Position numbers and translations under genes: made by a program. This document shows, in pieces, positions 5,179-62,998 of a DNA stretch of 64,000 nucleotides. Location of the stretch: the NCBI RefSeq assembly GCF_041431135.1, contig NZ_CP107799.1, forward strand, positions 6,572,001 through 6,636,000, in the 5' to 3' direction. The notes under the pieces were generated by a model, which saw only the letters and a program-made list of their open reading frames with translations, was not told the DNA's origin and did no database searches. The DNA comes from Streptomyces sp. NBC_00554 (GTDB lineage Bacteria > Actinomycetota > Actinomycetes > Streptomycetales > Streptomycetaceae). Each line of letters opens with the position of its first letter. Within the stretch, counting starts at the first letter, position 1.

Positions 5179-6168
5179 ATGGCCGAGTACGACAGCTCCG
5201 ACCGCGATGACACCTCCGACCGCGATGACAGCTACGACAGACGTGACAGGTACGACAGGTACGACAGGTGGGACATCAAGAAGCTGCGCATTCTGCGGGC
5301 TCTGCGGGAGTACGGGACCGTCACCGCGACCGCGGAGGCGCTGGTGCTCACGCCCTCGGCCGTGTCGCAGCAGCTGACGAATCTCGCCAAGCAGCTCGGG
5401 GTGCCGTTGCTGGAGGCCTCGGGGCGGCGGGTGCGGCTCACCGGCGCGGCGGAGCTCGTGCTGCGGCACGCGGAGGCGGTGTTCGAGCAACTGGAGCGGG
5501 CGGACGCGGAGTTGGCCGCGTATGTGCAGGGCGAGGTGGGGGAGGTGCGGGTGGGCGCCTTCTCGACCGCCGTGCCCGCGCTGGTCGTACCCGCCGTACG
5601 GGCGCTGGGCGAGGCGCATCCGGGGATCACCGTGCAGGTGCGGGAGGCCGAGGCGGCTCAGGCGTACGAACTGCTCGGCGCGGGCTCGGTGGACCTCGCG
5701 CTGTCGCTGGCCGCGCAGGCGCCGTCCGCGGCGGATCCGCGGTTCACCCGGGTGCCGTTGCTCGCCGATCCGCTCGATCTGGCCCTGCCGCGAGCTCATC
5801 CGCTGGCGTCGGCGCCGGCCGTGCGGCTCGCCGACTTCGCCGCCGAACCGTGGATCTTCGGCGGCAGCGGGCCATGGTCGGAGATCACCCGGGCGGCGTG
5901 CGAGGCCGCCGGGTTCAGCCCCCACCAGGGGCACTCCGCGGCCGGGTGGACGGCCATCCTGGCCATGGTCGAGGCGGGAATGGGCGTCGCCCTGGTGCCT
6001 CGGATGGCTTCCGTACGCCGGGACGGCGTCGTCATGCGGGAACTGGCCGCGGACCGTCCGCACCGGCACGTGGTCGCCGCGGTGCGCCGGGGAGCCGAGG
6101 ACGCACCCGCCGTGGGCCACGTACTCGACGCCCTGCGGGACGCGGCCGCGCGGCTGGCGCCTGTCTGA
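5179..6168 (+). CDS. LysR-family transcriptional regulator with a repetitive charged N-terminal extension
   Basis: 329 residues. The winged-helix domain begins at WDIKKLRILRALREYGTVTATAEAL (about residue 31) and carries the usual LTPSAVSQQLTNLAKQLGVPLLE recognition region. The remainder is a LysR substrate-binding domain with a WIFGGSGPW segment and MVEAGMGVALVPRM. Normal LysR proteins begin within a few residues of the helix-turn-helix. This one has about 30 preceding residues built only of D, R, S, Y and T, encoded by tandem DNA repeats. No in-frame ATG, GTG or TTG lies between the ATG at 5179 and the domain, so the extension appears real. It follows the exporter gene by 23 bp on the same strand. 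Confidence 0.9.
   Translation: MAEYDSSDRDDTSDRDDSYDRRDRYDRYDRWDIKKLRILRALREYGTVTATAEALVLTPSAVSQQLTNLAKQLGVPLLEASGRRVRLTGAAELVLRHAEAVFEQLERADAELAAYVQGEVGEVRVGAFSTAVPALVVPAVRALGEAHPGITVQVREAEAAQAYELLGAGSVDLALSLAAQAPSAADPRFTRVPLLADPLDLALPRAHPLASAPAVRLADFAAEPWIFGGSGPWSEITRAACEAAGFSPHQGHSAAGWTAILAMVEAGMGVALVPRMASVRRDGVVMRELAADRPHRHVVAAVRRGAEDAPAVGHVLDALRDAAARLAPV
5196..5266 (+). repeat. tandem repeats encoding the LysR N-terminal extension
   Basis: An 18-bp unit CTCCGACCGCGATGACAC occurs at 5196 and again at 5214 with one change. A 9-bp unit GTACGACAG occurs at 5249 and 5258. All lengths are multiples of three, so slippage would change protein length without shifting frame. Confidence 0.8.
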
Positions 6169-30051: not shown

Positions 30052-30061
30052 GGAACATGGA

Positions 30062-30098
30062 GAGAGCCCCCGCGAGTCACGTCCTCGCGGGGGCTCTC
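30062..30098. terminator. terminator after the phosphatase gene
   Basis: GAGAGCCCCCGCGAG and CTCGCGGGGGCTCTC are perfect 15-bp complements around a 7-nt loop, followed by CTT. Confidence 0.88.
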
Positions 30099-30162
30099 CT
30101 TCCATCCGCCTGCCACGTGAAGGTTGAGAAGACGATCACGAGCAGGACGCTTCATATCTGCC

Positions 30163-32444: not shown

Positions 32445-32486
32445 GGTTACCTGACTTCGTTTACCCCACTTCGGTTACCCGACTTC
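32445..32486 (-). repeat. 14-bp tandem repeats carrying the tauD-type stop codon
   Basis: On the minus strand three units run GAAGTCGGGTAACC (32486-32473), GAAGTGGGGTAAAC (32472-32459) and GAAGTCAGGTAACC (32458-32445). The first contains the gene's TAA stop. Because 14 is not a multiple of three, the three TAA triplets fall in all three frames. Confidence 0.85.
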
Positions 32487-33374
32487 GGTGACCGAGGTGT
32501 AGTGCGAGGCGTCGCCCGCGATCGAGTAGCTCTCCTTGCCCTCGATGCCGACCGGCACATCACCGGCGACGGTCACGCGGTGCAGGCGGCGGGGCTGTCC
32601 GTCGTAGTTGTCGATGGCGTAGTGCTGGGTGATCCGGTTGTCGAAGAGGACGAGCTGGTTCGGCGACCAGCGCCAGCGCAGGATGTTCTCCGGCCGGGTG
32701 ACGTACGCCTGGAGGATGTCGAGGATCTTGCGGGACTCGCCCACCGACAGGCCGATGATCCGCTGCGCGAACCCGCCGATGAACAGCCCGCGTTCACCGG
32801 TCAGCGGGTGGACCCGGACGACCGGGTGGGCGGTGCGGAACTTGATGGACGTGAACTGGGCGCGCTGCTCGGCCTGTTCCTCGTCGATCTCCTCGTCCGG
32901 CACCGCGTAGTCGTAGTCGTTGGTGTGCTCGGCCCACAGGTTGTCGGCGAGCCGGCGCAGCGGCTCGGGCAGGTCGCGGTAGGCGGCGGCGGAGTTGGCG
33001 ATGAGGGTCTCGCCGCCGTACGGCGGGATGGTGATGCTGCGCAGGGTGCTGGCCTGGGGCGGGTTGAGGACGAAGGTGACGTCGGTGTGCCAGTGGTTGG
33101 CGCGGCCCCGCTCGCTGTCCACGGGCAGCACGTTCGGGGCGCCGTCGACCGCGGGCACGGTCGGGTGGGCGGTGGTGAGGTCGCCGAACTGGCGGGCGAA
33201 TGCCTGCTGGCCCTCGTCGTCCAGGCCCTCGGCGTCGAAGACCAGCGCCTTGTGCTCGTTGAGAGCGGCACGGACGGCGGCGATGGTCTCGTCGTCGAGG
33301 GGCTTGGCGATGTCGATGCCGGATATCTGGGCGCCGATCTTCGCGGTGACCTTGCGGATCTCTATCTCGGACAT
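32475..33374 (-). CDS. TauD/TfdA-family Fe(II)/2-oxoglutarate dioxygenase
   Basis: 299 residues from ATG 33374 behind GAAAGGAC. Taurine-dioxygenase-like enzymes hydroxylate a sulfonate carbon and release sulfite. The iron ligands are in NHWHTD (His-x-Asp, about residues 93-98) and the distal His in DNRITQHYAIDNYDGQPRRLHRV, with the 2-oxoglutarate-binding Arg in PRRLHRV. It is the last gene of the apparent sulfur-scavenging operon, 104 bp after the monooxygenase. Substrate may be taurine or an alkyl sulfonate/sulfate. The stop codon lies in a tandem repeat. Confidence 0.92.
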   Translation of the reverse strand: MSEIEIRKVTAKIGAQISGIDIAKPLDDETIAAVRAALNEHKALVFDAEGLDDEGQQAFARQFGDLTTAHPTVPAVDGAPNVLPVDSERGRANHWHTDVTFVLNPPQASTLRSITIPPYGGETLIANSAAAYRDLPEPLRRLADNLWAEHTNDYDYAVPDEEIDEEQAEQRAQFTSIKFRTAHPVVRVHPLTGERGLFIGGFAQRIIGLSVGESRKILDILQAYVTRPENILRWRWSPNQLVLFDNRITQHYAIDNYDGQPRRLHRVTVAGDVPVGIEGKESYSIAGDASHYTSVTEVG

Positions 33375-33478: not shown

Positions 33479-34837
33479 TCAGTGGGAGGCGAGTGCCGGG
33501 ACGGCGTACTGGTTGGCCGGCCGCGGCAGCCCGTACCGCTCCCGCAGCGTCTGCCGCGGCCCGTACTCCGTGCGGAGCAGACCGCGGGTGCGCAGGATCG
33601 GCACGACCTGGTCGACGAAGAGTTCGAGGCCGGACGGCAGCACGGCGGGCATGATGTTGAAGCCGTCCGCGGCGCCGAGCCGGAACCAGTCCTCGATCGC
33701 GTCGGCGACCTGCTCGGGCGTGCCCGCGAAGGTCAGGTGACCGCGCCCGCCCCCGAGCCGGCCGATGAGCTCGCGGGCGGTGAGCCGCTCGCGCCGGGCG
33801 AGTTCGACCACGAGCGTGTAGCGGCTCTTGGCGCCCTCGATGGCGCTCTCAGGCGGCAGGTCCGCGGGCAGTAGGGCATCGAGTTCGAGCGTGCCCGGCT
33901 CCAGATGCAGCAGGTGCTCCAGGCGGTAAAGACCGTGCTCGTACACGATGTGGTCCTCGAGGACCCGCTCGTGTTCGCGCGCCTCGGCCTCGGTCGAGCC
34001 GATCACCGGGACGATGCCGGGCAGGATCTTGATGTGGTCCGGGTCCCGGCCCGCCGCGCTCGTACGGGACTTGAGGTCGGCGTAGAAGTCCTGCGCGTCC
34101 TTGAGGGTCTGCTGCGCGGTGAACACCGCCTCCGCGTACCGGGCCGCGAACCGCTTGCCGTCCTCGGAGGACCCCGCTTGTACGAGGAGGGGGTAACCCT
34201 GGGGCGTGCGGGGGACGTTGAGGGCGCCCTCGACACTGAAGTACGTCCCCTTGTGGCGCGGCGGATGGAGTTTCTGCTCGTCGCCCCAGACGCCCGTCGC
34301 CTTGTCGCCGACGACGAGGTCGTCCTCCCAGCTGTCCCAGAGCTTGAGCGCCACGTCGAGGAACTCGGCGGCGCGCTCGTAGCGGGTGGCGTGGGCGGGT
34401 TCGTCGTCGAGGCCGAAGTTGCGGGCGGCCTCGGCGCCGGCGGTGGTGACGATGTTCCAGCCCGCCCGGCCGCCGCTGAGATGGTCCAGGGAGGCGAATC
34501 TGCGGGACAGGTTGTAGGGGGAGTTGTAGGAGGTGGAGGCGGTGGCGATCAGGCCGATGTGCTGGGTGGCGACGGCCAGCGCCGTGAGCAGGGTGATGGG
34601 TTCGAGGGTGCCGGACGGGCGCTGACCGACGCTGTTGAACAGCACCGGGCCGTCGGCGAGGAAGAGCGAGTCGAAGGTGCCGCGCTCCGCGATACGGGCG
34701 AGGTTGACGTAGTGCGCGAGGTCGACGCTCGCGTACGGATCGCTCTCGGGCAGCCGCCAGGAGGCCTCGTGGTGCCCGGTGTTCATCAGGAAGGCGTTCA
34801 GGTGGAGTTGGCGGGAAGCGGTGGGTGCAGTGGTCAC
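33479..34837 (-). CDS. FMN-dependent monooxygenase, NtaA/SnaA/DszA (bacterial luciferase) family
   Basis: 452 residues from GTG 34837, which overlaps the ATPase stop codon (GTGA). Features are [50 protein letters not shown] at the N-terminus, then [20 protein letters not shown] and [25 protein letters not shown]. These mark the luciferase-like subgroup that uses reduced FMN to oxidise sulfur compounds or chelates such as NTA, EDTA and sulfones. With the sulfonate-type transporter and TauD homologue it probably desulfonates an organosulfur source. A flavin reductase is not encoded nearby and would have to act in trans. Confidence 0.9.
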
Positions 34838-35580
34838 TTGTGGTCCTCCGTGACGCCCAGGGCGGCGAGCAGCCGCTCGCGGTACTCGCCGAGCAAGGGG
34901 TCGCGATACGAGCGGGGATGCGGGATGTCGACGGTCAGATCGAGGCCGATACGCCCCTGGTCGAGCACGAGCACACGGTCGGCGAGCACGATCGCCTCGT
35001 CCACGTCGTGCGTGACGAGCAGCACGGAGGGCCGGTGGCGCTCCCACAGCTCGCGCAGCAGGACGTGCATCTTGATCCGGGTGAGCGCGTCCAGGGCGCC
35101 GAACGGCTCGTCGGCAAGGAGGAGTTCGGGTTCGCGGACCAGGGAGCGGGCCAGCGCGGCACGCTGCGCCTCACCGCCGGACAGCTCGTTGGGCCAGGCC
35201 CGTTCGCGGCCCGCGAGGCCCACCTCGGCGAGGGCGGCGCGACCGCGTTCGGCGGCCTCCTTGCCGTCCGCGCCGAGCAGTACGTTGTCGAGGACCCGGC
35301 GCCAGGGGAGCAGCCGGGAGTCCTGGAAGACGACGGACACCCGCTCAGGGGCGGTCAGTTGCCCGCTGCCGGCGACGGTGTGGTCGAGCCCTGCGATGGC
35401 CCGCAGCAGCGTGCTCTTGCCGGAGCCGCTGTGCCCGAGCAGGGCCGTGAACTGGCCCGCCGGAAGGTCGAGGTCGATGTCGTCGAGGACGGTGCGGCCC
35501 TCGAAGGAGCGTGTCAGTCCCCGGAGTTGGACGGTGAGCTTCGTCTGAGTGGATGTCAGTTGCTCAGCGTGCGTCGCCAT
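34834..35580 (-). CDS. ABC transporter ATPase, sulfonate/nitrate type
   Basis: 248 residues. Walker A is [13 protein letters not shown] (about residues 46-58), the signature [16 protein letters not shown], Walker [13 protein letters not shown], and the switch His in [10 protein letters not shown]. The [21 protein letters not shown]-loop is typical of SsuB/TauB/NrtD. It powers uptake through the permease encoded just upstream. Its start overlaps the permease 3' end by 25 bp and its stop overlaps the monooxygenase start, so the three are translationally coupled. Confidence 0.95.
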
Positions 35581-36419
35581 GACAGCACCCTCCGTTCGAT
35601 GAGACGGACCGCGCTGTCGGAGACCAGACCGAAGACCCCGTAGATCAGCAGGCCGACGAGGATCACGTCCGACTGGCCGTAGTTCTGGGCCTGGAACATC
35701 ATGTAGCCGAGCCCGTTGGTGGCGTTGATCTGCTCCAGGACGACCAGGGACAGCCAGGACCCGGTCACCCCGAGCCGCAGTCCGACGAAGAAGCCGGGCA
35801 GCGCGCCGGGGATGACGATCTGCCGGATGAAGGCGACCCTGGACAGCCCCTGGACCTCGGCGAGTTCGACATAGCGGTGGTCGATGCCGGACAGCGCGGA
35901 GTGCAGGTTCAGATAGATCGGGATGTAGACGACGATGGCGATGATCGCGATCTTGAAGGTCTCGCCGATGCCCAGCCAGAGGATGAACAGCGGGATCAGC
36001 CCGAGGGTCGGGATGGCCCGGTTGAGCTGCACCGTCCCGTCGATCAGCGCCTCGCCGATCCGGCTGAGCCCGGACGCGAGCGCCAGGACCACCCCGGCGG
36101 TCAGGCCGAGGGCGAACCCGTACGCGGCGCGTTCCAGCGAGGTGAGCACATCCGTGGGGAGCGTGCCGTCGGTCCACAGATGGCCGGCGGTGCTGAGGAC
36201 GGTCCAGGGCGCCGGTATCGCGCCGGGGTCCAGCTGCCCGGCGGCGGACGCGACGGCCCAGAGGGTGGCGAAGAGGACGGGGCCGATGAAACCGGCGGCG
36301 GGCAGCCGCTTGCCGGGTGCGAGCCCGCGGCGCCGGGCGCGAGCGGGTTTCTCCGTCACCGCCACGGGTGCGGTGGTGGTGGCAGCGGCGGTCACGGTGC
36401 CGGTCGTGGTGGTGGTCAT
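35556..36419 (-). CDS. ABC transporter permease, sulfonate/nitrate type
   Basis: 287 residues from ATG 36419, 5 bp after the binding-protein gene. A Thr/Ala-rich N-terminal leader ([20 protein letters not shown]) precedes six membrane helices. The EAA loop for ATPase docking is [40 protein letters not shown] (about residues 182-221), as in SsuC/TauC. Partner genes flank it on both sides. The overlap with the ATPase gene implies coupled translation. Confidence 0.94.
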
Positions 36420-36424
36420 GGCGG

Positions 36425-37498
36425 TCAACTCCGGTACTCGGCGGCCACGGACTTCGCCGCGATGCCCTCGAAGCGCCGGTCGAAGAGCGAGTCGACCTTG
36501 AACGCCTTCACGAAGCCGCCCTCGGCCAGCAGATCGGCGGTCTCCTGCTCCCACTTCACCGCCTCGTCCCAACTCGGCGGGTACAGCGGCTTGTTGGCGA
36601 GCTCGGTGATCGCCTGGGCCTGTGCGAGGTTCAGGTTCTGCGTCTTGACGAAGAACTCCTCGTTCCACTTGTCGGGGTGCTCGTACGCCCACACGGTGCC
36701 CTGCGCCCAGCGCGGGATGTACGCGGCGACCGCGGCGGCCTTCGCGGGGTCGGCGAGCACGGAGGTGGGCGCCCACAGCAGGTTGAGGAGGTCCACGACG
36801 TCGGTGGCGATGATGTGCGCGCCCTTGGACTCGTACTGCTTGATATAGGCGGGCACCTGCTCGTTGGCGAGCGGGGCGATGTCCACCTGGCCGGACTGGA
36901 GCGCGGTGAGGAACTGGTTGCTGGTCAGCGGCACCAGCTCCACATCGTCGTACGCCAGCCCCGCTTCCTTCAGGGCACGCAGGAGTACGACGCCCTGTGC
37001 CTGCCCCTGCGAGAAGGCCAGCTTCCTGCCCTTGAAGCCCTGGGCGTCCTTGATGTCGCTGCCGGGTTTGGTGGCGAAGGCGTAGTTGGGCTTGCGGGTG
37101 ACGTTGATCGCGACGATCTTCGCGTCGAAGCCCTGGTAGTGCGCCTGGATCGGCGGGATACCCGCATTGTTGGCGAGGTCCAGGGACTTGGCGCGGAAGG
37201 CGTTGATGACATCGGGACCGGCGCCGATGTTCGGCCAGTCGGCGACGGTGAAGGGCAGGTCGTCGAGGCCCGCCAGCTTGAACTGGACCTGCTGCCGGCC
37301 CTGGTACGAGGCGATCTTCAGGCTCGTACCGGAGGGAACCTCGGCGGCCAGCGGGGCGGACGTCGACCCCTTGGCCGAGGTGCTCGCGGCACTGCTGCCC
37401 GCGCAGCCACTGAGGCCGGCGACAGCGGCGGCGCCGAGCAGGGAGGACAGGAACAGCCGCCGGTCGATACCGGACGCGGAGGAGGACAGTGGTGGCAT
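36425..37498 (-). CDS. ABC transporter substrate-binding lipoprotein, sulfonate type
   Basis: 357 residues from ATG 37498 behind GGAG. The N-terminus carries both a twin-arginine pair and a lipobox: [23 protein letters not shown], so it is probably Tat-exported and then anchored at the cysteine. The body is an SsuA/TauA-like periplasmic-binding fold ([84 protein letters not shown]). First structural gene of the sulfur operon. An in-frame ATG at 37579 would disrupt the signal sequence and is not preferred. Confidence 0.93.
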
Positions 37499-37669: not shown

Positions 37670-37753
37670 TCAGCAACAAAGCGTGCGCGCGACCCGCATG
37701 AGGTCGACGACACGGCACTTGGTGAGCGGAACCTGCACCCGCGAGCTGCTCAT
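37670..37753 (-). CDS. short leader peptide upstream of the sulfonate ABC operon (probable Cys-sensing attenuator)
   Basis: 27 residues: MSSSRVQVP then LTKCRVVDLMRVARTLCC and stop. The RVVDLMRV core and terminal cysteines match the short Streptomyces leader ORFs, typically (S)RRHVDLxRV...C, found before sulfur-assimilation genes. Tandem Cys codons just before the stop would stall ribosomes when cysteinyl-tRNA is scarce. AGGAG lies 12 bp upstream and can pair with CTCCT next to the ATG. The ATG overlaps the stop of the upstream ROK gene (ATGA). Seen: the ORF and motif. Inferred: attenuation. Confidence 0.78.
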   Translation of the reverse strand: MSSSRVQVPLTKCRVVDLMRVARTLCC

Positions 37754-39042
37754 GAGGAGGATGCTCCTGGTCGTCCGTAAGGCCTGTCAACATTCGGAGT
37801 TTCTGAATTAAATCGGTCCCGGTGAGGGCCCGGTGACGACTCTGGCGACGGCTTCGGTGACGCGCCCAGCGGATCCCGGTAGAACACGTCGAGGGCCACC
37901 GAACCGCCCGCCACGGCCAGCACGGACTCCGGGAAACTCGTCGGCACGACGGCCGCCGCCCGGTCCGGCCCGACCTCCTCGCGCAGCGCCCGCAGGCAGT
38001 CCTCCCGGTGGATGATCCCGACCTCGGTGACGACGACGGTGTCCGGATTGAGGACGTCGAGCAGCAGCCCCACCGCCCGCCCGATCATCCGGGCCCGCTC
38101 CACCAGCAGCCGTACGGCGACCTGGTCACCGTCCGCCGCCGCGGCCACCACGTGCATCGGGTTCACACCGGCGATGACCCCCGCCTCGCGGGCCCGGCGG
38201 GACAGCGTCCGCTCGCTCAACTCGGCCTGAAGGCACCCCGTCCGGCCGCAGTCGCACCGCTCCGTGCCGCCCGCGAGCGGCAGATGGGCGATCGCACCGG
38301 CCTGGGAGCGGGGACCGTAGTGCACCTGGTCGTGGGTGGCGAAGGCCGCGTCCACCACATTGCCGACGAACAGATGCAGCACGCTCCGGCTGCCGCGCGC
38401 CCGCCCGAACAGCCGCTCCCCGTTGACCAACGCCCGCGAGTGGCCGTCCACATGGACCGGCAGCCCGGTACGCGCGCCGATCGCGTCCCGTACGGCGACC
38501 TCACGCCAGCCCAGCATGGGGTGCTCCACGATGGTCCCGGAGTCCCGGTCCACCCAGCCCCCGCCGGCCACGCCCACGCTCAGCGGCGTACGGTCGGGGG
38601 CTTCGGCCAGCAGTGCGCCGAGCCCGTCGGCGGCGTTCGCCAGTACCCGGCCCGGCTCGGTGCCACCGCTGTGGCTCAGCTCCCGCTCCGCCACCACCCG
38701 GCCGCGCAGATCGAGCAGCGCGACCGTCGTGTACGGCACCGCCACGTGGACTCCGCCGACCACGAACCGGGCGTCGTCCAGGTCGACGGGTACGTGCGGG
38801 CGCCCCACGCCCTTCGACTGCCGGGGCGCGGGCGCCTCCTGGATCAGACCGAGCGCCGTGAACTGGGCGCAGTAGTCGGTCACCGACGCCGGGGACAGTC
38901 CGGTCAGCCGGGCGACGGTGCTTCGGGCGACCGGTCCGTGGTCCAGCACGGACCGCAGGATGACACTGGCGCTGGTCCTGCGGCGCGCGCTGTCGGCGGC
39001 TCGGGTCCGCGGTGGTGCCGCGGTACGGGGCATGGAGAGCAT
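37750..39042 (-). CDS. ROK-family transcriptional regulator
   Basis: 430 residues from ATG 39042, behind GAGGAAG. An N-terminal winged helix (ASVILRSVLDHGPVARSTVARLTGLSPASVTDYC, about residues 24-57) precedes a ROK sugar-kinase-like domain with the zinc motif CDCGRTGCLQAE and GVAGGGWVDRDSG. The catalytic kinase residues of true ROK kinases are not obvious, so it is probably a repressor of NagC/XylR type. The last ~45 residues are polar and variable. Its stop codon overlaps the start of the second leader ORF, and a related leader ORF precedes it, so it appears to belong to the sulfur locus. ROK regulators usually bind sugars, which makes this placement notable. Confidence 0.9.
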   Translation of the reverse strand: MLSMPRTAAPPRTRAADSARRRTSASVILRSVLDHGPVARSTVARLTGLSPASVTDYCAQFTALGLIQEAPAPRQSKGVGRPHVPVDLDDARFVVGGVHVAVPYTTVALLDLRGRVVAERELSHSGGTEPGRVLANAADGLGALLAEAPDRTPLSVGVAGGGWVDRDSGTIVEHPMLGWREVAVRDAIGARTGLPVHVDGHSRALVNGERLFGRARGSRSVLHLFVGNVVDAAFATHDQVHYGPRSQAGAIAHLPLAGGTERCDCGRTGCLQAELSERTLSRRAREAGVIAGVNPMHVVAAAADGDQVAVRLLVERARMIGRAVGLLLDVLNPDTVVVTEVGIIHREDCLRALREEVGPDRAAAVVPTSFPESVLAVAGGSVALDVFYRDPLGASPKPSPESSPGPHRDRFNSETPNVDRPYGRPGASSS

Positions 39043-39115
39043 GGGGAACTTCCTCGGGGCTGGTCCGACACTGCGCCGTCTTCGTATCGGCGAGCCGGAT
39101 CCGCTCCGTCCCGCC

Positions 39116-39202
39116 CTACACCGTGCGGCGACAGGTGGCCGTGCCCTGGCGACGCAGGTCGACATAGCGACGCGACGCGAAGTTCTCAGCCTGGGCAACC
39201 AT
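39116..39202 (-). CDS. short leader peptide upstream of the ROK regulator
   Basis: 28 residues, MVAQAENFA then SRRYVDLRRQGTATCRR and TV. The SRRYVDLRR core and the Cys near the end place it in the same leader family as the ORF at 37670-37753. It ends 73 bp before the ROK start codon. The ribosome binding site is poor, so initiation could be weak or the transcript leaderless. The motif match is what supports it; length alone would not. Confidence 0.62.
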   Translation of the reverse strand: MVAQAENFASRRYVDLRRQGTATCRRTV

Positions 39203-39246
39203 GGGGTGAAGGGTAGGGCTTGTCCGGCGGATCCTGCTAGGGGCGG

Positions 39247-60373: not shown

Positions 60374-62998
60374 GTGACCGACAACGCTCAGCAGCAGCCT
60401 CCAGCGCCCACCTCCGAACTGCCGACCCAGTACGCGCCGGCCGAGGTAGAGGGGAAGCTGTACGAGCGCTGGGTCGAGCGGGGTTACTTCGCCGCCGACG
60501 CGAAGAGCGACAAGCCCGCGTACACCATCGTCATCCCGCCGCCGAACGTCACCGGGTCGCTGCACCTGGGGCATGCCTTCCAGCACACGCTCATGGACGC
60601 GCTGACGCGTCGTAAGCGCATGCAGGGTTTCGAGGCGCTGTGGCTGCCGGGGATGGACCACGCGGGTATCGCGACGCAGAACAAGGTCGAGCAGCAGCTC
60701 GCCGAAGAGGGCAAGTCGCGGCAGGACCTCGGGCGCGAGGCGTTCGTCGAGCGCGTCTGGCAGTGGAAGGAAGAGTACGGCGGCAAGATCCTCGGGCAGA
60801 TGCGCCGGCTCGGGGACGGTGTGGACTGGTCGCGCGAGCGGTTCACCATGGACGAGGGTCTTTCGCAGGCCGTCCAGACCATCTTCAAGAAGCTGTACGA
60901 CGACGAGTTGATCTACCGCGCCGAGCGGATCATCAACTGGTGCCCCCGATGTCTGACCGCCATCTCCGACATCGAGGTCGAATACCAGGAGGACGACGGC
61001 GAGCTCGTCTCCATCAAGTACGGGGAGGGCGACGAGACCCTCGTGGTCGCCACCACCCGTGCCGAGACCATGCTCGGTGACACCGCCGTCGCCGTGCACC
61101 CCGACGACGAGCGCTACAAGCACCTCGTCGGCAAGCGCATCAAACTGCCGCTGACCGACCGCACCATCCCCGTCGTCGCGGACACGCACGTCGACCCCGA
61201 GTTCGGCACCGGCGCCGTCAAGGTCACCCCCGCCCACGACCCCAACGACTTCGCCATCGGCCAGCGCCACGGCCTGGAGTCGATCACGGTCATGGACGAG
61301 CGGGCGGTCATCACCGTCCACGGCCCCTTCCAGGGACTCGACCGCTTCGAGGCCCGCTCCGCGATCGTCGGCGCGCTGCGCTCGCAGGGCCGGATCGTCG
61401 CCGAGAAGCGTCCGTACGTCCACTCCGTGGGCCACTGCTCGCGCTGCCGTACGACCGTCGAGCCGCGCCTGTCCATGCAGTGGTGGGTCAAGGTCGGCCC
61501 GCTGGCCCAGGCCGCCGGCGACGCCGTCCGGGACGGCCGCGTCGCGATCCACCCCGCCGACATGTCGAAGCGCTACTTCGACTGGGTCGACAACATGCAC
61601 GACTGGTGCATCTCACGGCAGTTGTGGTGGGGTCACCGGATTCCCGTCTGGTACGGCCCCGAGGGCGAGGTCGTCTGCGTCGGCCCCGACGAGGAGCCGC
61701 CGAGCGGCGAGGGCTGGACCCAGGACACCGACGTCCTCGACACCTGGTTCTCGTCGGGGCTGTGGCCGTTCTCCACGCTCGGCTGGCCCGAACAGACCCC
61801 GGACCTGCAGAAGTTCTACTCGACGGACGTCCTGCTCACCGGCCACGACATCATCTTCTTCTGGGTCGCCCGGATGATGATGTTCGGCCTGTACGCCATG
61901 GACGGCGAGGTCCCCTTCAAGACCATCGCCCTCACCGGCCTGGTCCGCGACGAGCGCGGCAAGAAGATGTCGAAGTCCTTCGGCAACGTGGTCGACCCGC
62001 TGGACTGGATGGACAAGTACGGCTCCGACGCCGTCCGTTTCACCCTCGCCCGCGGCGCCAACCCCGGCACCGACGTGCCGATCGGTGAGGACTGGGTCCA
62101 GGCGTCCCGGAACTTCGCCAACAAGATCTGGAACGCCACGCGCTTCGCGCTGATGAACGGTGCGACGGTCGAGGGGCCGCTGCCGGAGGCGTCGAAGCTG
62201 TCGGCGACCGACCGGTGGATCCTGTCCCGGCTGAACAAGACCGTCGCCGAAGTCGACGCGCTCTACGACGACTTCCAGTTCGCGAAGCTGTCCGACGCGC
62301 TCTACCACTTCGCGTGGGACGAGGTGTTCGACTGGTACGTCGAGCTGTCGAAGACGACGTTCATGGCGGGCGGCGAGCCGGCGAAGGTGTCCGGCCGGGT
62401 CCTCGGTGAGGTCCTGGACGTGACGCTTCGTCTCCTCCACCCGGTCGTTCCGTTCGTGACGGAGACGCTCTGGACCACCCTCACCGGTGGTGAGTCCGTC
62501 GTCGTCGCCGAGTGGCCGAAGGACAGCGGGTTCCGTGACACCGCCGCCGAGCGGGAGATCGAGACGCTTCAGGAGGTCATCACCGAGGTGCGGCGCTTCC
62601 GTGCCGACCAGGGGCTGCAGCCCGGTCAGCGGGTGCCGGCGCGGCTGAGCCTCGACGGGACCGCGTTGGCTCCGCACGAGGCGGCCATCCGGCAGCTGCT
62701 GCGTCTCCAGCCCGAGGGCGACAGCTTCTCGGCCACGGCGACCCTGCCGGTCGGCGGTGCCACCGTCGCGCTCGACCTCTCCGGCACGATCGACGTCGGC
62801 GCGGAGCGTAAGCGGCTCGCCAAGGATCTCGCCGCTGCCGAGAAGGAGAAGGCCCAGGCGAACGGGAAGCTCGGCAACGAGGCGTTTCTCGCGAAGGCGC
62901 CGGACCAGGTGGTCGAGAAGATCCGCACGCGGCTTGCCAAGGCGGACGAGGACATCGCCCGGATCAAGGAGCAACTGGAGCGGCTGCCGGAGGCGTGA
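60374..62998 (+). CDS. valS: valyl-tRNA synthetase
   Basis: 874 residues from GTG 60374. Class Ia synthetase that charges tRNA-Val. HIGH-type motif HLGH (residues 64-67, in [12 protein letters not shown]) and KMSKS at 531-535 ([11 protein letters not shown]). The editing domain has [26 protein letters not shown]-terminal coiled-coil tail is seen ([29 protein letters not shown]...). Length is normal. It is followed by repeat copy 6 and then folC in the same direction. Confidence 0.97.

Follow-up and report, generated by a model that had tools for sequence, protein, structure and literature searches.

Two cysteine leader peptides flank a ROK regulator gene in a Streptomyces sulfonate locus: a candidate two-tier cysteine-starvation switch

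Here, we describe a sulfonate locus of Streptomyces sp. NBC_00554 (genome size 10.08 Mb), which lies in a stretch of 64,000 nucleotides of contig NZ_CP107799.1 referred to as the window throughout. Two short cysteine-containing open reading frames (ORFs), leader 1 and leader 2, flank the gene of a ROK-family regulator, and the order of the locus is leader 1, ROK, leader 2, ssuACB-monooxygenase-tauD. The initial annotation had placed the two ORFs at 39202-39116 and 37753-37670 of the minus strand, one ahead of a ROK gene and the other ahead of sulfonate genes. Both ORFs exist at these positions and on this strand, and the gene assignments agree with the Pfam match of the ROK protein and with the SsuA-, SsuB-, NtaA/DmoA- and TauD-like matches behind it. 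The closest named locus is that of Streptomyces sp. NBC_00620, with an SsuA 99% identical to the one encoded here. The following ORFs and genes are found in the window:

39116..39202, minus strand: leader 1, 28 amino acids, MVAQAENFASRRYVDLRRQGTATCRRTV, with a single putative sensor Cys codon, TGT
37750..39042, minus strand: ROK-family regulator, 430 amino acids; Pfam ROK PF00480, 3.5e-31
37670..37753, minus strand: leader 2, 27 amino acids, MSSSRVQVPLTKCRVVDLMRVARTLCC
36425..37498, minus strand: SsuA-like substrate-binding lipoprotein, first gene past leader 2; TIGR01728, 7.8e-31, under the cut-off of that model
35556..36419, minus strand: SsuC-like permease, named by position and by eye, with homologs in the same order in related loci
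34834..35580, minus strand: SsuB-like ATPase; PRK11247, 2.1e-76, under the cut-off of that model
33479..34837, minus strand: NtaA/DmoA-family FMN monooxygenase; TIGR03860, 541.9 bits against a cut-off of 279.7
32475..33374, minus strand: TauD/TfdA dioxygenase; PF02668, 1.3e-61

Comparative evidence was drawn from two overlapping sets of loci. A protein search with SsuA gave 96 relatives, of which the best 80 loci, almost all labelled Streptomyces, were retained and joined with the window (81 loci). The second set was chosen independently of SsuA, by searching 295 Streptomyces genomes for a conserved box upstream of leader 2. Allowing up to three mismatches, 74 of these genomes match, and the reversed-sequence control gave no match. 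32 box-pattern places were fetched, including all five with two or three mismatches. Three of these five (L146-L148) are unrelated and represent chance matches, and the ROK gene is present at 29 of the 32 places.

Leader 1 was found in all 75 loci of the first set with enough upstream DNA. It is unseen in the other six (L011, L020, L022, L024, L032 and L043), because the 944 to 1463 bases before their SsuA match are too short to contain it. In the box-pattern set, it is present in 26 of the 27 loci unaffected by a contig end, L180 being the exception. Leader 1 is kept as a peptide, approximately MVAQ..NF.SRR[YH]VDLRR...A.CR. A Cys leader at the place of leader 2, located by a rule that required TTGACA upstream, occurs in 80 of the 81 loci. 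The exception, L002, lacks ROK gene, box and leader 2 altogether; apparent scraps remain, and leader 1 stands directly before ssuA. At the 29 box-pattern places with a ROK gene, leader 2 is found in every case and SsuA in 28. The conservation of both leaders thus rules out chance occurrence. Leader 2 varies in length from 8 to 52 amino acids, and its conserved part is a C-terminal Cys cluster, (S)CRTLCC and variants, which ends in CC in 78 of 80 loci. In 19 of the 80 loci, it is reduced to 8 amino acids (e.g., MSCRTLCC), with Cys codons and promoter spacing retained. The leaders might instead encode small proteins that act in trans, which would fit the conservation of leader 1 as a peptide. 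This is hardly credible in view of a leader 2 that can shrink to its Cys codons at a fixed promoter distance, and of a putative sensor codon that is conserved beyond the residue, as described below.

In the window, the ROK stop codon and the ATG of leader 2 overlap (ATGA, 37750-37753), and the ROK reading frame extends across the box and the putative promoter of leader 2. Among the 80 loci, this overlap is confined to the window and L001; elsewhere, a gap of up to 146 nt (median 54) separates the two.

It had been proposed initially that the two leaders are related by duplication and head one operon, based on an R-x-V-D-L-x-R core common to both. The core is indeed present in both leaders of the window: its DNA pattern occurs four times there versus 0.28 times expected from shuffles, and two of the four are leaders 1 and 2. 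The other two matches lie at 5844-5863 and 60901-60920, both on the plus strand. Across loci, leader 1 usually has the core, whereas in leader 2 it is an exception, seen in 12 of 80 loci, all inside one Streptomycetaceae clade of 15 in the ROK tree (81 rows, i.e., 77 SsuA-found or window loci and 4 outgroups). This distribution requires two changes on the tree, compared to a mean of 11.4 after shuffling. In contrast, 68 of the 80 leader 2 sequences comprise 8-16 amino acids without the core. In the outgroups, a leader-2 counterpart stands at promoter spacing in three of four loci, core-free in each, and is missing from the fourth, L160. In addition, weak NCBIfam matches put the two leaders in different leader families. 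Leader 1 matches NF042934 ("putative leader peptide") with 18.7 bits, below the cut-off of 27. Leader 2 of the window matches NF042933 ("Ms5788A family Cys-rich leader peptide") with 20.9 bits over 21 residues, far below the cut-off of 45, and differs from that family in that most leader 2 sequences are short and core-free. Because the core is clade-limited on the ROK tree and the outgroup counterparts found lack it, we reject leader 2 as an old duplicate of leader 1; despite the common core in the window, this origin has very little probability left. The likeness of both leaders in the window appears to be a late feature of one clade. Neither does the notion of related copies heading a single operon hold, as leader 2 seems to have its own promoter and its conserved feature is the C-terminal Cys cluster. 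A core-type leader 2 was also seen at L169, a ROK paralog locus of genome G056, where an RRHVDLCR-type leader follows the ROK gene at the same promoter spacing; the genes downstream resemble, by eye, those of binding proteins and permeases.

The promoter-like elements of the two leaders, P1 and P2, are located as follows:

39210..39215, minus strand: P1 -10-like hexamer TACCCT, 13 nt ahead of the leader 1 start codon
37785..37790, minus strand: P2 -35 element TTGACA, in 80 of 80 loci (TTGACA being part of the search rule)
37761..37766, minus strand: P2 -10-like hexamer GAGCAT, 13 nt ahead of the leader 2 ATG

Both leaders look leaderless, because a -10-like hexamer lies 12-13 nt upstream and, for leader 1, also because a strong Shine-Dalgarno (SD) sequence is missing. 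TAnnnT is found at -12 or -13 of leader 1 in 75 of 75 loci, and an SD with at least five of six matches occurs in none of the 75, compared to 55 of 70 ROK genes. Leader 2 shows GAACAT or GAGCAT at -13 in 74 of 80 loci. From the first T of TTGACA to its ATG, the distance is 37 nt in 78 loci and 36 nt in two, and a near-invariant block, TTAATTCAGAAACTCCGAATG-TTGACA, stands ahead of it in the 80 loci. This geometry points to a separate promoter P2 for leader 2. The suggestion of the initial annotation that the regulator gene lies between two distinct control points is strongly supported by the conservation of two promoter-like elements, two apparently leaderless Cys leaders and one regulator. The 60 nt upstream of leader 1 show at least two sequence types in related loci, the GTCTCGCCCGTCGGTCGCCGTCTGGGCAGC type and the GAATCC...GGATTC type, which suggests that control of P1 may differ upstream.

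The choice of Cys codons in the leaders departs from the coding background, which in the ROK and ssuA genes of the same loci amounts to 549 TGC and 44 TGT (44/593, 7%). Leader 1, with 62 distinct sequences from 75 loci, has TGT as its Cys codon in all 62, and the overlapping box-pattern set agrees with 26 of 26. In leader 2, TGT is used for the penultimate Cys in 42 of 43 distinct sequences and for the Cys at -6 in 33 of 35; for the final Cys, it is TGC that prevails (39 of 41). A Fisher value of 2e-58 overstates independence, because the sequences are related; the position-specific contrast is clear despite this kinship. In most bacteria, a single tRNA decodes both UGU and UGC, so slower wobble decoding of UGU is a natural reading. 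Conservation above the coding background is also seen at several other third positions of leader 1, and thus an RNA-level constraint is another possible reason for UGU.

Leader 1 is one of several such peptides in its own genome. A search with NF042934 yielded 28 matches at E ≤ 10, of which 10 exceed the cut-off, as opposed to none above cut-off in 14 control genomes. The top 13 matches (E ≤ 0.093, leader 1 being the 13th) were examined; the open frames that contain the other 15 are 188 to 1511 amino acids long. Twelve of the 13 (leader 1 counted among them) share the Cys position of leader 1, with TGT as the codon in each of the twelve; the Cys of a DLC motif is TGC in three of three cases. 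The remaining one, L089, ends in SSAY without a Cys. Ten gene fragments behind other NF042934-type leaders were scanned with Pfam. Two gave no match, and the other eight were called as cysteine dioxygenase, sulfatase, PLP-dependent enzyme (which we gloss as cysteine synthase type), acyl-CoA dehydrogenase N-terminal domain, nitrite/sulfite reductase, flavin reductase, DIOX_N oxygenase and periplasmic binding protein; the gene behind L090 was named a thiosulfate sulfurtransferase by eye. Leader 1 is like this family in being an RxVDLxR...C peptide ahead of sulfur genes, and differs in scoring under the cut-off and in preceding a regulator instead of a metabolic gene. As UGU is rare in GC-rich genomes, its presence may serve as a simple search aid for functional Cys-sensing leaders there, and it makes sensing by codon rather than by residue directly testable. 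Two members of the family, L082 (C1:651068-651124, minus strand) and the Cys-free L089 (651745-651792, plus strand), form divergent RxHIDL leaders within about 700 bp; L089 scores above the NF042934 cut-off.

The ROK protein appears to combine an N-terminal helix-turn-helix with its ROK domain: it matches helix-turn-helix models below their cut-offs only, but residues 27-353 align to Lmo0178, a ROK regulator (1z05), which together with Mlc is among its closest solved chains. The protein retains the cluster CDCGRTGC, and shows AGAIAH and DGHSR where Lmo0178 has AGEFGH and DKNIN, positions that we take to hold the sugar-binding residues of ROK proteins. These differences are consistent with a changed ligand. 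A candidate binding site is located just upstream of P2:

37791..37813, minus strand: ROK-box candidate ATTTAATTCAGAAACTCCGAATG, near-invariant in 80 loci, its left half being the reverse complement of TGAATnnAAt

The box contains ATTTAATTCA, an exact reverse complement of TGAATnnAAt, followed 7 bp on by CGAATGTTGA, and is a single site in its own genome at up to three mismatches. Corynebacterium glutamicum has two ROK-type activators of sulfonate and sulfate genes, SsuR and CysR, and the cysR and ssuR transcripts are leaderless (PMC2580772). According to the same source, the CysR site is an inverted repeat of the half TGAAtnnAAt with halves 6-8 bp apart, located 3 bp upstream of the -35 element, and SsuR recognizes the half TGaA[at]nnaaT with halves 3 bp apart. 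The present locus resembles this system in a ROK gene tied to sulfonate genes, a TGAATnnAAt half beside the target -35 and transcripts that are presumably leaderless. It differs in its leader ORFs, none being mentioned for SsuR or CysR in the accessible part of PMC2580772. Judged by box and domain, the protein is a probable SsuR/CysR-like sulfur regulator. For Rhodococcus qingshengii IGTS8, an 18-33-fold higher abundance in a dibenzothiophene culture was reported for a ROK regulator encoded near tauD and a choline sulfatase gene (PMC8557817).

ROK proteins are, however, mostly repressors answering to sugars (PMC2580772), a picture in line with the PDB matches above, and the right box half directly adjoins the -35 element, a position also open to a repressor. 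It is therefore conceivable, if unlikely, that the ROK protein represses or acts elsewhere and that the box ahead of P2 is the site of a different sulfur regulator. Against this, the left half of the box matches the half-site of the activators CysR and SsuR, and the ROK gene adjoins the box at 29 of 32 pattern-found places, the other three being the chance matches mentioned above. In the more divergent loci described below, the box changes with the ROK sequence but remains adjacent to the gene. L002 lacks ROK gene, box and leader 2 together, though a single deletion would explain that. With activation by the ROK protein as the preferred reading, the box is a candidate starting point for studying how sulfonate genes are controlled in Streptomyces.

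The layout extends past the genus, but is not universal. A ROK protein search in 246 genomes of the class gave 25 with E ≤ 1e-60: 8 close Streptomyces (own genome included), 3 further Streptomyces (45-53% identical), 12 in family f18 (45-49%) and 2 in family f19 (36-40%). 16 longer divergent stretches were taken, 4 of f1 and 12 of f18. Leader 1 is found upstream of the divergent ROK gene in 13 of the 16 (e.g., MGEHAHLVGRAHIDLRRVASALCQTTR), with 195 to 687 nt between its end and the ROK match, and its matching Cys is encoded by TGT in 13 of 13. The loci without leader 1 are L169 and L170, which have other surroundings, and L171, which is at a contig end. Downstream of ROK, 10 of the 16 (L156, L157, L158, L162, L163, L165, L167, L168, L169 and L171) have TTGAC and, 35-36 nt on, a Cys ORF under a loose rule that accepts any ORF of 7-60 amino acids with a Cys; VNNIGRSGGGISPPPGPCCRRC, with TGT TGT ... 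TGT, is an example. L170 shows no P2 of the TTGAC type downstream of ROK. In several f18 loci, including L156, L158, L163 and L171, the block is AATTAATTTCAGC, or TGAAATTAAT on the opposite strand, which in our reading fits the SsuR half. The circuit would thus be common to Streptomyces and at least one other actinomycete family, and hence older than the genus unless passed between them.

Two RNA elements lie between leader 1 and the ROK gene:

39087..39117, minus strand: hairpin H1, at and past the leader 1 stop codon, with covariation on 59 loci
39062..39080, minus strand: strongly conserved element GACGGCGCAGTGTCGGACC, shortly before the SD of ROK; about 18 loci carry a shortened form, GAGACGTGTCGG

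H1 was evaluated on 59 of 70 distinct loci (groups A and B); 10 loci fitted neither group or held N, and one exact copy was dropped. 89.0% of the cells pair, compared to 84.5 in shuffles and at most 64.1% with slid partners, and 11 cells are changed on both sides versus 2.2 in shuffles, with 0 of 500 as high. Pairs with both-side changes number 2 versus 1.4 in shuffles (207 of 500 as high), which is not above chance, and stem length alone is weak (7.4 versus 6.4). Support for H1 thus comes from the both-side-changed cells and the pair score, and not from stem length or the number of such pairs. On a hand-picked set of 33 loci, 96.4% of the cells are paired. Given the position of H1, ribosomes at the Cys codon and at the stop codon are expected to have different effects on the hairpin. 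The element GACGGCGCAGTGTCGGACC pairs with the Cys-codon region in single-sequence folds, a pairing without covariation support because both sides are nearly invariant.

Other structures were considered and rejected. A stem within leader 1 (GCGTCGC/GCGACGC) would account for CGA codons but was abandoned, as the window has CGT and the stem is broken there. Past the stop codon of leader 2, a potential hairpin does not exceed shuffles (6.1 versus 6.5). An anti-SD match, GCCGUCC/GGACGGU, is present in 18 group B loci; some are mismatched, and compensating changes were not seen in them. Rfam at gathering scores reports no element at either leader.

Taking these observations together, we propose a two-tier cysteine-starvation switch, a feed-forward relay over regulator and target operon, to which we assign a probability of roughly two in three. 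P1 would give rise to a leaderless mRNA that starts at leader 1 and continues into a ROK regulator of the SsuR/CysR kind. The regulator would bind the conserved box just upstream of P2 and activate it, and P2 would drive a second leaderless mRNA with leader 2, followed by the genes for sulfonate/taurine uptake and desulfonation. We infer that both leaders are translated and respond to cysteine: when charged Cys-tRNA is scarce, a ribosome would pause at the UGU near the end of each leader, and the pause would raise expression of the gene behind, i.e., first the regulator and then the target operon. Candidate targets of the pause are Rho-dependent termination, H1, or access to the ribosome-binding site. 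The outcome would be a feed-forward AND gate. What the sequence itself shows are the two leaders with their frames and codon choice, the promoter-like geometry, the box, H1 and the conservation of these parts. The stricter statement, that the same ribosome-based cysteine sensor gates the ROK activator and, independently, its operon, with UGU kept by selection, appears to us evenly balanced.

Amino-acid attenuators are best known ahead of metabolic genes. One before a transcription factor and another before its target would constitute a small conserved logic circuit, testable by a few codon changes in a laboratory Streptomyces. The parts are of known kinds. In mycobacteria, leaderless ORFs with contiguous Cys codons are described as Cys-dependent attenuators (Canestrari et al. 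2020; precursor PMC4633059). As far as these accounts go, the leaders reported here resemble that type as short, apparently leaderless ORFs that come first in the mRNA, with Cys codons near the end and sulfur or cysteine genes behind, and depart from it in that two leaders surround a regulator gene in one locus, leader 1 has a single Cys, and folding shows no SD freed by a stalled ribosome. The unusual feature is that Cys leaders occur here as a conserved pair, the first ahead of a probable regulator of the SsuR/CysR type and the second between the box-bearing promoter of its target and the structural genes. In the open-licence literature, we found no paper on this circuit; most subscription papers lie outside that scope.

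With regard to this comparison, it might be that only leader 2 is a Cys attenuator of the mycobacterial type, and that leader 1 is an arrest peptide (MVAQ...RRYVDLRR) answering another signal, with the Cys as part of the peptide. Leader 1 conserves its peptide well past the one Cys, whereas leader 2 mainly keeps the Cys cluster. The use of UGU in all 62 distinct leader 1 sequences and in all 12 Cys-bearing leaders of the own genome points to Cys decoding and not to the residue alone, and we regard an arrest peptide as improbable.

Several observations weigh against the proposed two-tier switch. Leader 1 has a single Cys in nearly all loci, unlike polycysteine leaders. L180 has ROK gene, box and leader 2 (MSPRMICRTLCC) directly before tauD, and neither leader 1 nor an SsuA match was found there. 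A strict sigma-70 scan reported neither P1 nor P2, because both have -10 elements that differ from TATAAT. The box extends right up to the -35 element, unlike the C. glutamicum repeat with its 3-bp distance, and the window retains only four of the six consensus pairs of H1. Among the divergent loci of f18, L160, L161 and L166 have a -35 element and no Cys ORF at P2 spacing, while L159 and L164, with TauD upstream of ROK, show no P2; in two f19 loci (L139 and L142), with flanks of about 1.5 kb only, no leader was seen. A terminator with a T-run on the coding strand was not found. Finally, folding gives no support for SD unmasking by a stalled ribosome, at ROK or at ssuA. For this purpose, the ribosome footprint was masked at successive leader codons, and SD accessibility was computed by folding. 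From leader 1 to the ROK SD (70 loci), accessibility is 0.354 for a ribosome stalled at Cys and 0.365 for free RNA, without a peak there; values rise to 0.405 at codons 2-5 further on and to 0.424 far upstream. From leader 2 to the ssuA SD (73 loci), no accessibility peak appears at the Cys codon, and the 57 loci with motif-defined starts give 0.448 for a stalled ribosome versus 0.428 for free RNA, no higher than with a stall at adjacent codons. A first stalling run on 75 loci agreed (0.42 free, 0.41 stalled).

As to the mode of attenuation, the spacer between leader 2 and ssuA ranges from 76 to 430 nt, or from 85 to 405 nt when starts are motif-defined, and such a variable length fits termination control better than a local SD switch. 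The spacer is C-rich and G-poor, with a C minus G value of 0.142 versus 0.076 in coding windows; 14% of the coding windows reach its median. Because neither SD unmasking nor a T-run terminator was found and the spacer is long, variable and C-rich, we favour Rho-dependent termination as the first candidate, the evidence being suggestive only.

Elsewhere in the window, an ordinary sodF sRNA was identified at 30061-30150 (strand given as minus), with 95.6 bits to Rfam RF02790.

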